A DNA stretch of 64,000 nucleotides from Planctomycetaceae bacterium. GTDB taxonomy: Bacteria > Planctomycetota > Planctomycetia > Pirellulales > Pirellulaceae. Location of the stretch: positions 1 to 64,000 of the forward strand of contig QIKY01000371.1 in the NCBI GenBank assembly GCA_003233175.1. Direction: 5' to 3'. Below are positions 56,768-62,927 of this stretch, piece by piece (positions within the stretch are counted from its first letter, which is position 1; each line of letters starts with the position of its first letter). The notes under the pieces were generated by a model. It did not search any database, was not told the origin of the DNA, and saw only the letters and a program-made list of their open reading frames with translations. The translations under genes were made by a program, and so were the position numbers.

Positions 56768-57976
56768 ATGGCTGCCACCCACGTTGACGATCCTCGAATT
56801 GTCGAATTCGACGTTCGCACCGACGAAATGCTCATCAATATGGGCCCCCAGCATCCCAGCACGCACGGCGTGTTGCGGCTTGTGCTTAGAACCGACGGCG
56901 AAATCGTCTCGGAAGTCGAGCCGCATATCGGGTATTTGCATCGTTGCGCGGAAAAAATTGGTGAGAACCTCACGCCCCGGCAATGGATTCCCTACACCGA
57001 CCGTATGGACTACCTCGCCGCGATGAACATGAATCTCGGCTGGTCGTTGACGGTGGAAAAGCTGCTCAAATACAAACTGCCCGAAAAGGCTCGCCATTTG
57101 CGAGTGATCATCGCGGAAATGGGCCGCATCGCCAGCCACTTGGTCGGCATGGGCGCCTATGGACTCGATTTGGGCACGTTCAGTCCGTTCCTGTACGCCT
57201 TTCGTGAACGCGAGAAAATCCTCGATCTGTTCGAGGAGGCCTGCGGCGCCCGACTGACCTACAGTTACATCACGCCCGGCGGCGCCACCTCCGACTTGCC
57301 CAACGGCTGGCTGCAAACCTGCGACGCCTTCCTCGAACAACTGCTGCCGATCATTCAGGAATACCACGCGCTGCTGACCACCAACGCCATTTTCGTCAAG
57401 CGAACCGCCGCCATTGGCGTGATGCCCGCCGAACAGGCGATCGACTTCGGTTGCACCGGTCCGGTGTTGCGCGGCAGCGGCGTCGACTACGACCTTCGCC
57501 GCGATGGCGAAGAACGATACACCGAAATGTACGATGGCTACGCCTTCGAGGTCATCGTGGAAAAAGACGGCCACTATCCCCGCGATCACGAATACCCCGC
57601 CGTGCCCCGCGAAGCCGTGCTGGGCGACTGCTGGCATCGGTTTTATGTCCGCATGTTGGAAGTCATCCAAGCCATCGACCTAACGCGACAAGCCATCGAG
57701 AAATACAGCACGGCGTCTGGCGATTGGGGCCAGCCAATCAAGCTGACGCAAAAACTGCCCAAGGGCGAAGTCTACTTGGAAACCGAATCGCCGCGAGGCC
57801 AAATGGGCTTCTATTTGGTCAGCCATGGCGATTCCATACCCTACCGCGTTCGCGCCCGCAGCAGTTGCTTCTGCAACCTCTCGGTGACAGCCGAACTTTG
57901 CCGCAACTGCCTGATCGCCGACATTCCCGCGATCGTCGGTTCGCTTGATATCGTGATGGGTGAAATCGACCGCTAG
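56768..57976 (+). CDS. nuoD: NADH-quinone oxidoreductase subunit D
   Basis: 402 residues, typical length. MLINMGPQHPSTHGVLRLVL opens the 49-kDa subunit, and YTDRMDYLAAM, GAYGLDLGTFSPF and the C-terminal EIDR end are conserved. The protein helps form the quinone-binding site with NuoB. It is the last complex I gene here: nuoE and later genes do not follow, and a repeat/GxxExxY region starts within 70 bp of its stop. The operon may be split by that insertion. Confidence 0.96.
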   Translation: MAATHVDDPRIVEFDVRTDEMLINMGPQHPSTHGVLRLVLRTDGEIVSEVEPHIGYLHRCAEKIGENLTPRQWIPYTDRMDYLAAMNMNLGWSLTVEKLLKYKLPEKARHLRVIIAEMGRIASHLVGMGAYGLDLGTFSPFLYAFREREKILDLFEEACGARLTYSYITPGGATSDLPNGWLQTCDAFLEQLLPIIQEYHALLTTNAIFVKRTAAIGVMPAEQAIDFGCTGPVLRGSGVDYDLRRDGEERYTEMYDGYAFEVIVEKDGHYPRDHEYPAVPREAVLGDCWHRFYVRMLEVIQAIDLTRQAIEKYSTASGDWGQPIKLTQKLPKGEVYLETESPRGQMGFYLVSHGDSIPYRVRARSSCFCNLSVTAELCRNCLIADIPAIVGSLDIVMGEIDR

Positions 57977-58088
57977 CCGGCGTGCAGCAACCAAACCCCC
58001 CGACGTATTCACGATGCTCCCGCTAAATTCCCCGAAGAAACCCTGTTCGGAACCACGAATAGACGCCAAATAATACGGTGGTCCGCGT

Positions 58089-58166
58089 CGGAACCACGAA
58101 TGGACGCCAATAAACACGAATGCTGCGGGTTGGAAAATTCGTGTTAATTGGCGTCCATTCGTGGTT
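58089..58166. repeat. 78-bp palindromic repeat, left flank of GxxExxY gene
   Basis: Arms of about 30 bp, starting AACCACGAATGGACGCCAAT, with a 15-nt loop (GCTGCGGGTTGGAAA). It matches the copy at 58619-58696 at about 76 of 78 positions in the same orientation. A truncated third copy (AACCACGAATAGACGCCAAA) lies at 58049-58080. Confidence 0.92.
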
Positions 58167-58217
58167 GCACCTGAGCTGGCCCCCGTTGTTTGAGCAACCA
58201 ACGGGTTGCCGCCTCAA

Positions 58218-58598
58218 TCAAAGCACCACTCGTTTCCATTCCAATTTTGCCCGTTTGAAATTGAGCAGCAAGCCGACTCTCAATCCGGTAATTTTCAAAT
58301 AGTTCAACATCTGACCAAGTTCATGGTCGCCGATGCAATCGATCGTTTTCGTATCGACCACGATCTGGCCAAAGCAGATAAGATCGGGAACGTACTCACC
58401 GACTTTGACCTGCTTGTAGATCCCATCGAATTTTCTCTGTTGCTGGCAAGCGATGCCCTGCAATCCAAACTCAACCACCAATGCGTTCTCGTACGGTTTC
58501 TCCAGCAGACCGTGCCCCAGCGTATTCAGCACTTCCATCGCACAGCCGACGACGCGGTGGACTTCGTCTTTCAGCAACAACTTTGTCTGATTGCCCAT
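58218..58598 (-). CDS. GxxExxY protein, PD-(D/E)XK-like
   Basis: About 126 residues. GHGLLEKPYENALVVEF contains the GxxExxY motif (GLLEKPY), followed by a nuclease-like core VPDLICFGQIVVDTKTID (PD..x..VDxK in place of the usual ELK) and GLRVGLLLNFKRAKLEWKR. It belongs to the family named TIGR04256/PF13366. No biochemical function is established; the fold suggests a nuclease. The ATG at 58598 is used, since the frame upstream is repeat-derived. The gene is bracketed by 78-bp palindromic direct repeats, and a deleted relative lies at 62537-62743. Confidence 0.9.
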   Translation of the reverse strand: MGNQTKLLLKDEVHRVVGCAMEVLNTLGHGLLEKPYENALVVEFGLQGIACQQQRKFDGIYKQVKVGEYVPDLICFGQIVVDTKTIDCIGDHELGQMLNYLKITGLRVGLLLNFKRAKLEWKRVVL

Positions 58599-58618
58599 TG
58601 CTCTGTTTGCCTCGTTTG

Positions 58619-58696
58619 CGGAACCACGAATGGACACCAATAAACACGAATGCTGCGGGTTGGAAAATTCGTGTTAATTGGTGTCCATTCGTGGTT
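58619..58696. repeat. 78-bp palindromic repeat, right flank of GxxExxY gene
   Basis: Same sequence and orientation as 58089-58166 apart from two substitutions (GGACACC and GGTGTCC). The two substitutions are paired, so the stem is preserved. It lies 21 bp upstream of the gene start. Confidence 0.92.
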
Positions 58697-58774
58697 CCCT
58701 CTCTTTTTCCGTTTTTCCATCCGTTTCAACTCTTCAAGTGATTGCTCAAAAAACAGGTTACCCCTTGTGGCGCG

Positions 58775-58809
58775 AAAAACGCCCGGCTTTTTGAAAAAGC
58801 CGGGCTTTT
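58775..58809 (-). terminator. Terminator hairpin after superoxide dismutase gene
   Basis: AAAAACGCCCGGCTTTTT and a complementary arm with one change and a T-run on either side, 34 bp past the stop of the minus-strand dismutase gene. It is a variant of the recurrent GCCCGGC family. Confidence 0.88.
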
Positions 58810-58842
58810 AGCGAGTTGATTTTTTTGTGTTCTGGGCGTTTG

Positions 58843-59448
58843 CTAACTCTTCGCCGCGGCGTAACGCCGGGCCACTTCGTCCCAGTTGATTACGTTAAAA
58901 AACGCTGACACATAGTCAGGACGACGATTCTGGTAGTTCAGATAATACGCGTGCTCCCAGACGTCCAGCCCTAGAATCGGGGTTCTGCCAGCCGTTAAAG
59001 GGCTGTCTTGGTTCGGCGTGCTTTCGACGACCAGCTTTCCAGCGTCGACGCTCAGCCAAGCCCAACCGCTGCCGAACCGCGTTGCGGCGGCTGTGCTGAA
59101 GGCGGCTTTGAAGGAATCGAAGCCGCCTAAATCGGCGGTCAGGGCGGCTGCTAAATCTCCGCTGGGGGCGCCGCCGCCAGGCGCCATCACGGTCCAAAAT
59201 AAAGAGTGATTTGCATGGCCGCCGCCATTATTTCGGACCGCGCCGCGCACGGCTTCGGGAACGTCGTTCAAGCCCGCGACCAACTCTTCGATGGTCTTGC
59301 TTTCGAGTTCGGAGCCTTTGATCGCATCGTTGACTTTATTGATATACGCCTGATGGTGCTTCGTATGATGGATTTCCATCGTACGGGCGTCGATATGCGG
59401 CTCAAGAGCATCATAAGCGTAGGGCAATTTTGGAAGCGTGTAGGCCAT
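58843..59448 (-). CDS. sodA: Superoxide dismutase, Mn type
   Basis: 201 residues. [20 protein letters not shown] opens the Fe/Mn family, with ligand His near 27 (MEIHHTKHH), [13 protein letters not shown], and [19 protein letters not shown]. The Gly-Gly-His-Ala and the TPNQD Gln (in place of the Fe-type pattern) favour manganese. The ATG at 59448 has AGGAAAGG about 8 nt upstream. The upstream frame to 59601 is out of family. It is cytosolic, removing superoxide, and monocistronic with a strong terminator. Confidence 0.96.
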
Positions 59449-59840
59449 GGGGGCGCCTTTCCTGCAAAGTGAAGGGGGGATCGCTAACGTAACGGGAAAA
59501 CAACACCGCAAGCCGGCCGACAAAGGAAAGCCTTGTGTCGCGAGAGTGCGGCAAGAATGGTCGAATTTCGGCAGCATACCGGATGATTCGGCCGGGCACA
59601 ATTGGCCATTGCGGATAACGCAGCATTGCGTTCTCGTTTTGCTTGCCGCCTACTTCAAGACCTGCTGGAGAGATTGCGTGGAAAATGACTGCTGTACGAT
59701 GGCCTTCCAAGGCCGTCGAAATAGGATATTCCTGGAGTAGACCGACGGCTTTGGAAAGCCATCGTACAACAAGGTATCAACAAACAGACTCCAACCGCGA
59801 ATTCCAACGCCGCGTAAAAAGTGCGATTCCGCACTCAGTT
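59449..59840. other. Intergenic DNA between sod and HD/GGDEF genes
   Basis: Contains one GTACGATGG palindrome (59694-59767). The sod promoter is expected near 59460-59600. No gene is supported. Confidence 0.6.
59694..59767. repeat. GTACGATGG palindrome, copy 4
   Basis: Arms 59694-59718 and 59743-59767 (two differences) enclose the conserved asymmetric loop AAATAGGATATTCC and CTGGAGTAGACC. Confidence 0.9.
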
Positions 59841-62072: not shown

Positions 62073-62509
62073 GACGGCCAACGCAACGAAACAAGCCGTA
62101 GTTCCGCCGTGTTGACCGTGTTAGACGTCGTTGAAATGCTAGGTCATCGCTTCGAGTTGTCAAGTCGTAACCGCGAATCCGGCAATGGGGGCTATCGTGG
62201 AGCGCAACTCGCCATTCCCTCGGCGTTTACGTCTCGCGCCGCGTTGAGAAGAATTCTCCACAATCGGCCGACATGAAGCTCGCCTCCGCCATGCCGCGGC
62301 GCTGCGAACCGGCAACATCGTTTTAATCGCCGCCAACAGTCCAGACGTCGCCGTTGCTCGACTGGCGGCGGCAACCAATTTCGTGGCCGTTCACGGAGTT
62401 TGATTGGAACGTTCATCGTTACGCTGGCATGATTTCACAGGAGGGAACGGAGAGAACAGAGAATCCTGTTTGTTTCTTCGTTTCCTCCGCATAAAAGGGA
62501 TTTCGATGC
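62073..62509. other. Intergenic gap, no gene seen
   Basis: Between the HD/GGDEF gene start and the GxxExxY relic. One 50-codon open stretch near 62252-62403 has protein-like composition (GNIVLIAANSPDVAVARL) but no start codon, so it may be another eroded gene. The left arm of the relic's inverted repeat begins at 62439. Confidence 0.45.
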
Positions 62510-62799
62510 ATGCTTTGTTTTCCTCCGCAAACAGTTATGACGCACGATGTGATTGGCTCCGCCATCGAAGTTCATAAGGACAAAGGGCCCGGTTTACTGG
62601 AGTCCATTTATGAATGGTGCTTGACGATGGAACTCCTCGATATTCCGCTGGGGCTGATTATCAACTTTAATGCTTCGAAATTGACGGACAGCGTTTCCAG
62701 GGCAGCGTTTCCAGGGCAGCGTTTCCAGATTGATCCTGCCTAGCGCCAACACCGAATGATTCCGCACTTTTCTCTGTTTCCTCCGTTCTCTCCTGTTCC
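62439..62799. repeat. Inverted repeat bracketing the GxxExxY relic
   Basis: AGGAGGGAACGGAGAGAACAGA at 62439-62460 is inverted, with a few changes, at about 62771-62799 (starts TCTCTGTTTCCTCCG). The relic coding stretch lies between the arms. Confidence 0.75.
62537..62743 (+). pseudogene. GxxExxY protein, internally deleted relic
   Basis: The sequence reads MTHDVIGSAIEVHKDKGPGL then LESIYEWCLTMEL, matching the family N-terminus with GxxExxY (GLLESIY), then jumps to DIPLGLIINFNASKLTDSVSR, which is the family C-terminus (GLLINF). The central nuclease-like region of about 60 residues is missing, and no frame of it is nearby. The deletion is in frame, so a short peptide is still encoded. It is bracketed by an inverted repeat. 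Confidence 0.82.
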
Positions 62800-62927
62800 A
62801 TAATTTTAATGGCCACATCCGGAAGATCGCCTCATGCCCACTTCAGTTTGGACGCGAGCAGGGCAACGCCGCTTTGACTTTGCCCAAGAAAAAACCCCGA
62901 AACAAGTTCCCGGTGGTGGCTCGGAAC

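Follow-up and report, generated by a model that had tools for sequence, protein, structure and literature searches.

GxxExxY nuclease-like genes between inverted arrays of a seven-nucleotide word: a paired-hairpin copy beside nuoD in a Planctomycetaceae genome and its relatives across many phyla

Introduction

The closest described parallel to the locus analysed here is the REP/REPIN system with its RAYT protein (TnpA-REP, a Y1 HUH enzyme). In the excerpts available of two papers on it (PMC3116915, PMC8266576), a single nuclease gene lies between palindromic repeats in inverted orientation, short non-autonomous derivatives bearing the same ends are numerous, and repeat and protein are matched to one another. 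A second point of reference are the Rpn (YhgA-like) PD-(D/E)XK proteins, which were first connected with recombination and, in later work, with defence, according to the accessible parts of PMC5350276 and PMC10327210. For the GxxExxY family, the open-access papers that name it or its Pfam number do not mention bracketing words in the parts that were available, the context in which the family is named being unrelated to repeats, and no prior description of a unit made of a GxxExxY gene and word-bearing arms was found in the open-access literature searched.

The DNA studied is a stretch of 64,000 nucleotides (positions 1 to 64,000 of contig QIKY01000371.1, from a Planctomycetaceae bacterium), here called the window. 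A first-pass annotation, made from the sequence by itself, had pointed out a GxxExxY nuclease-like gene between two matched 78-bp palindromes. We argue, with a probability of roughly 60%, that gene and arms together form a two-part selfish unit, in which a PD-(D/E)XK nuclease is paired with its own word-bearing inverted arms in a manner like that of REPIN and RAYT.

Materials and Methods

The sample comprised 93 GxxExxY loci of a single phylum, another 80 obtained by scanning bacteria and archaea with one genome per species, and four plasmid loci; these are best-scoring matches, many of them from draft genomes, and related loci are not independent of each other. The bracket test searched 350 bp outwards on each side for an inverted repeat scoring at least 14. 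Words were extracted with a regular expression; more divergent ones, for instance of the CAGGAG or GGGAA type that visual inspection showed, escape it. The history of the words was followed on a tree of 91 GxxExxY proteins, on which changes were counted and compared with 200 shuffles. Loci with stop codons were left out of the alignments used for folding.

Results

Two 78-nt palindromes in the same orientation, 97% identical (two differences), lie one on either side of the GxxExxY reading frame, which is open (Table 1). Their arms of 30-32 nt are about 97% complementary and enclose a loop of 15 nt. The G/A and C/T differences between the two palindromes face one another in the stem and are thus compensatory, leaving both stems intact. 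On the matched palindromes, the compensatory substitutions and a third, partial copy at the left side, the first-pass annotation was correct, and the palindromes are confirmed as a real feature of the locus.

Table 1. Features of the window around the GxxExxY unit, and copies of a MITE elsewhere in the same genome
Feature	Position	Strand	Arms	Details
nuoD	56768-57976	+		Upstream neighbour of the unit; NF008974/TIGR01962
Partial extra arm	58049-58077 (from 58047 as partial third copy)	+		Abuts the left hairpin; words CACGAAT, CGCCAAA
Left 78-bp hairpin	58089-58166		58092-58121 and 58137-58166	Words CACGAAT, CGCCAAT, CACGAAT; period 10
GxxExxY / PDDEXK_3 nuclease-like gene	58218-58598	-		126 aa; TIGR04256, PF13366, AlphaFold2, Foldseek
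Right 78-bp hairpin	58619-58696 (arm end to 58698)		58620-58651 and 58667-58698	Words CACGAAT, CACCAAT, CACGAAT
Flank TTTTTCCATCCGTTTCAACTCTTCAAGTGAT	58706-58745			Also beside solo hairpins elsewhere in the genome (L006, L007, L008, L011)
Second GxxExxY unit (L042)	62383-62801	+		Remnant with central deletion; other word family, GGAACGGAGAGAACAGAGAA / inverse
MITE copies				L005, L010, L013, L014, L016, L018, L021, L024, L026, L028, L029

The placement of the unit directly after nuoD, at a likely break in the operon, was also borne out. A superoxide dismutase gene is located on the minus strand downstream of the unit (nuoD-to-dismutase stretch, 56768-59451), and in 28 further genomes of the family neither the unit nor the dismutase gene was found over up to 1.5 kb after nuoD, which places the unit where the common gene order is interrupted. 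In the only congener found (G001, nuoD 99% identical) the unit is present, its left hairpin is shortened, and the contig stops before the unit is complete. Target-site duplication, which the first-pass annotation proposed to look for at the outer edges, was not seen at the nuoD site. The second unit in the window, a remnant, has at least nine other copies as relatives in the same genome.

Two other hairpins were observed in the window. One (CCCGGCTTTTTGAAAAAGCCGGGCTTTT, 58777-58809) has similar copies near 62.8 kb and in L050, and some of the MITE copies described below appear inserted into it; the other (TGTACGATGGCCTTCCAAGGC...GCCATCGTACA, 59690-59770) has a similar counterpart in L051. An Rfam search for a known RNA at the 78-bp hairpin gave chance microRNA-like matches only.

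Bracketing by inverted arms is a general property of GxxExxY genes. In the one phylum, such arms were found around 67 of 88 loci (76%), against 1/169 shifted and 1/440 shuffled controls; in about 15 named phyla the figures were 50/76 loci (66%) and 4/256 shifted positions, with shuffles at about 1 in 400. A 7-nt word, C(A/G)CNNA(G/T/A), usually occurs three times in an arm, at a spacing of 1-3 nt and with the CCAC end outward; L120, for example, has six perfect CACAGAG words. The pair of whole hairpins described earlier as the brackets is true of the window locus but a special case, the usual form being one arm per side. Strict word triplets occurred on both sides of 57 of the 177 GxxExxY loci, and at 0/446 shifted positions, 0/28 RAYT genes and 0/28 nuoD genes. 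Under a looser rule a word was obtained from 99 loci, and 93 of them have an equal period in both arms (8 in 42 loci, 9 in 34 and 10 in 17).

Different units carry different words. In the genome of the window, the other intact GxxExxY genes have arms of the CACGGAT type (L033) and of the CGCGAAG type (L031), and the GxxExxY remnants L037, L045, L047 and L048 have the CACGAAG type. No pair of units with the same word and period was found in any of the genomes with at least two worded units (11/11), a count that near-identical copies collapsed in drafts would escape.

The words have changed together with the proteins. On the tree, the last letter of the word changed 8 times, against a shuffled mean of 23.2 (lowest 17), the period 20 times against 39.3, letters 4-5 33 times against 43.4, and the whole word 49 times against 64.2; in each case 0/200 shuffles were as low. 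At an orthologous site beside groEL (named by eye from its C-terminus) in two congeners, with 85% DNA identity, the words are of the CGCAGAG type in one species and of the CGCGAAG type in the other, a difference seen in each of the three words on both sides. We regard it as nearly certain, as a joint claim, that the arms bracket the gene and share one word and one spacing and that word and protein have evolved in concert. A threonine at the start of helix 1 is present in 51 of 65 units with G as letter 5 and in 0 of 23 with A, and it is possible that a Thr/Ser at this position reads letter 5. The phylogenetically independent supported pairs, all of which go in the predicted direction or show no change, number three to four, and for this reason the tie between Thr/Ser and letter 5 is given as a lead, not as a result.

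Some side observations concern the arms and their neighbours. In L093, L120, L183, L185, L187, L189 and L227 the reading frame of the gene continues through the upstream arm, yielding peptides such as NHRDTEAQR, so the annotated start codons of GxxExxY genes may often fall inside the arm. Between ruvC and hemW of one Flavobacterium, a gene for a four-helix-bundle protein (S23p-like, by eye; L259:1433-1762 and flanks) is flanked on both sides by AGTGTTCAGT words in inverted orientation, and no such reading frame is present between the two genes in the related L258. A unit of this type thus seems to exist for a second gene family; when it was sought in the genome of the window no match was obtained, and the controls were silent as well. 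In that genome, the RAYT (PF01797) genes L049, L051, L052 and L053 are bracketed by long REP-type inverted repeats of their own.

Arms are also found away from any GxxExxY gene. A half-arm pattern with up to three mismatches had 55 matches in the genome of the window and 0 when reversed, and the strict word-triplet pattern had 116 matches there, against 0 for its control, so the repeats are no product of chance. The triplet pattern reached 596 matches in a single genome (G103), with 0 or 1 per genome for the control. Two or more arrays were present in 34/52 genomes with GxxExxY and in 11/67 without it (p=5e-8). The 78-bp hairpins of the window are members of a family of solo hairpins in the same genome, with related loops, and gene-free copies, for which the first-pass annotation proposed a search, are present; among the solo hairpins read, no target-site duplication was found. 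Many gene-free elements of G103 start with the first 24 nt of the GxxExxY unit L098 unchanged, a match that extends past the words. A further hairpin family of that genome has sharp ends (ACGATC/GATCGT), unrelated flanks and no duplication. Among arrays chosen regardless of GxxExxY there are units whose gene has an internal deletion (L279/L360, L288, L291). Three genomes have many arrays (G098, 67; G110, 85; G107, 13) and no GxxExxY match at E<=0.001, possibly because the partner gene is a different one or has been lost.

Larger elements can contain these sequences. In the genome of the window, a MITE of 202-236 bp with the terminal inverted repeat (TIR) GTAACTAYTCAGCGA and no gene carries CACGAAT-type arms; it has 11 copies, with 8-bp target-site duplications (TSDs) in 5/11. 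Its TIR resembles that of a larger element of the same genome which holds the GxxExxY family L034-L046, and a classical transposase could move the TIR elements that hold this one unit family and many of the palindromes. In two Bacteroidetes, a GxxExxY unit lies within an element of 650 bp whose outer ends are GGCTACTCTTT (L195:2754-3406 and L196:2754-3403), the two copies being 87% alike with different flanks. Carriage of this kind, together with the genomes that have arrays and no GxxExxY gene, is what favours an explanation in which something else, a RAYT or a MITE transposase, spreads the palindromes, and GxxExxY is a passenger trapped between two copies. We consider this unlikely, since in the same phylum the REPs around RAYT genes are of another kind, with words on both sides in 0/28, and since a passenger would be expected neither to share its phylogeny with the word nor to come from one gene family throughout the phyla.

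The sites of insertion provide information on how units are placed. In G145 a unit fills the gap between sucA and sucB (genes named by eye), which measures 28 bp in two congeners, and no target-site duplication is visible. Because these 28 bp are themselves repeat-like, gain of the unit is favoured there, with loss still possible. Loci without the whole unit, which the first-pass annotation proposed to look for, were found both at nuoD and at sucA-sucB. Other units split fabD from fabG and batD from batE, or separate radA from its neighbour, and sites common to related species (L142/L156, L094/L103) indicate that units are often inherited in place. Among the 76 units located between genes of the same direction, 66 are sense and 10 antisense to both neighbours (p=3e-11), a bias that the RAYT genes of the same phylum do not have (7 vs 4).

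Sense placement inside operons, the complementarity and fixed orientation of the arms and their compensatory changes would also be expected if the arms acted in RNA. The arms of the sense transcript would then pair and leave the reading frame in a stem-loop, to be processed or to control its own expression in the manner of an intervening sequence, and the nuclease might cut the stem. This is quite unlikely, as pairing alone leaves unexplained the likeness and joint change of the three words in each arm, the spacing of 8, 9 or 10 kept in concert, and the hundreds of dispersed gene-free hairpins.

The window protein scores 125.7 bits against TIGR04256 (cut-off 35) and 119 bits against PF13366; its GxxExxY motif reads GHGLLEKPY, and it belongs to TIGR04256. 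It matches PF13366 only and not the Y1 HUH transposase family PF01797, and there is no transposase gene within the unit, although one acting on its ends in trans is possible. The PD-(D/E)XK residues D72, D82 and K84 are in place, D replacing the usual E of the family. In the AlphaFold2 model (pLDDT 89, pTM 0.81), the closest structures by Foldseek were lambda exonuclease, LHK-exonuclease, Cas4 (SSO0001) and the archaeal Holliday junction resolvase Hje, with TM about 0.5 and all at E>0.001; a sequence search for a known structure gave none that was convincing. By its modelled core fold and its D...(D/E)xK residues the protein fits the PD-(D/E)XK superfamily, with a predicted role as a nuclease. 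A phage origin was considered, and no relative was present among 50,697 phage records. GxxExxY genes are rare on plasmids.

GxxExxY might instead be a defence nuclease resembling toxins or restriction enzymes, with arms that serve as operators for self-repression. This recalls the PD-(D/E)XK Rpn proteins, once called transposases and reported, in the part of PMC10327210 available, as phage-defence toxin-antitoxin systems, but it is highly improbable: the window protein had no match among the PADLOC defence families, a related protein matched Cas4 models only weakly, PHROG gave no match, and one would expect neither operators on the downstream side nor dispersed copies that lack the gene.

Discussion

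The first-pass annotation had read the PD-(D/E)XK protein within its palindromes as a repeat-propagating unit without a transposase. The association across phyla, the solo palindromes and the empty site of another unit speak for this part of the claim; movement by the protein itself is something that we infer, and many palindromes of the genome ride a MITE with 8-bp TSDs. As a two-part selfish unit, the system would work as follows. The arm words would be the sequence recognised by the GxxExxY protein of that copy, which would bind them on both sides, in duplex form or when extruded as a hairpin, and nick or cut there; the break or the freed hairpin would then be copied into new sites. Full units would represent the autonomous form and hairpins the non-autonomous one, as in RAYT and REPIN. 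Units settle in operon gaps in the sense direction, where the host operon probably transcribes them. The window unit is a CACGAAT-word copy with two whole hairpins, placed between nuoD and the superoxide dismutase gene.

Outside help is suggested by the palindromes and the one unit family that sit in larger TIR elements, and by the three genomes that have 13-85 arrays and no recognisable GxxExxY. Because of these facts, and because some units are inherited in place, the mechanism is one that we infer. A broader proposal is that GxxExxY units are a separate class of mobile elements spanning phyla, whose whole mobility machinery would be a single PD-(D/E)XK nuclease that reads a 7-nt word repeated three-fold in inverted arms, and that the code for the word would lie partly at the start of helix 1 of the protein; we put it forward tentatively, as somewhat less probable than its converse.

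The GxxExxY family occurs in many phyla and its function is unassigned; each copy now gains a predicted DNA target, predicted hairpin partners and a built-in test of specificity by word swap. The units would also mean that the REPIN/RAYT lifestyle arose independently a second time, and they would help to explain the CACAGAG/CACGGAG-type repeats that are dispersed in many environmental genomes.

Among the known systems, Rpn and GxxExxY proteins are both small PD-(D/E)XK nucleases but belong to different families, and brackets of word arrays are not mentioned in the available parts of the Rpn literature. Like MITEs and insertion sequences, GxxExxY units have inverted ends and give rise to derivatives with internal deletions; they differ in having no transposase gene inside, no TSD seen (at sucA-sucB and in solo hairpins) and ends that are word arrays. 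A homing endonuclease cuts the empty site and repair copies it in; for the GxxExxY units, an empty orthologous site was found at sucA-sucB.

The REP/RAYT system shares with the GxxExxY units a gene bracketed by inverted palindromic repeats and dispersed solo copies. It differs in the enzyme, which has the HUH fold in RAYT and is of the PD-(D/E)XK type in GxxExxY, in the repeat, which is a GC-rich tagged hairpin in REP and an arm of three 7-nt words at a period of 8-10 in GxxExxY, and in the sense placement of GxxExxY units in operon gaps. In the positive control, 21 of 28 RAYT genes of the same phylum were bracketed by inverted repeats, these being GC-rich REPs, and 0/28 had word arrays on both sides, indicating that GxxExxY units have the REP/RAYT layout, while neither their nuclease nor their repeat is related to those of REP/RAYT.
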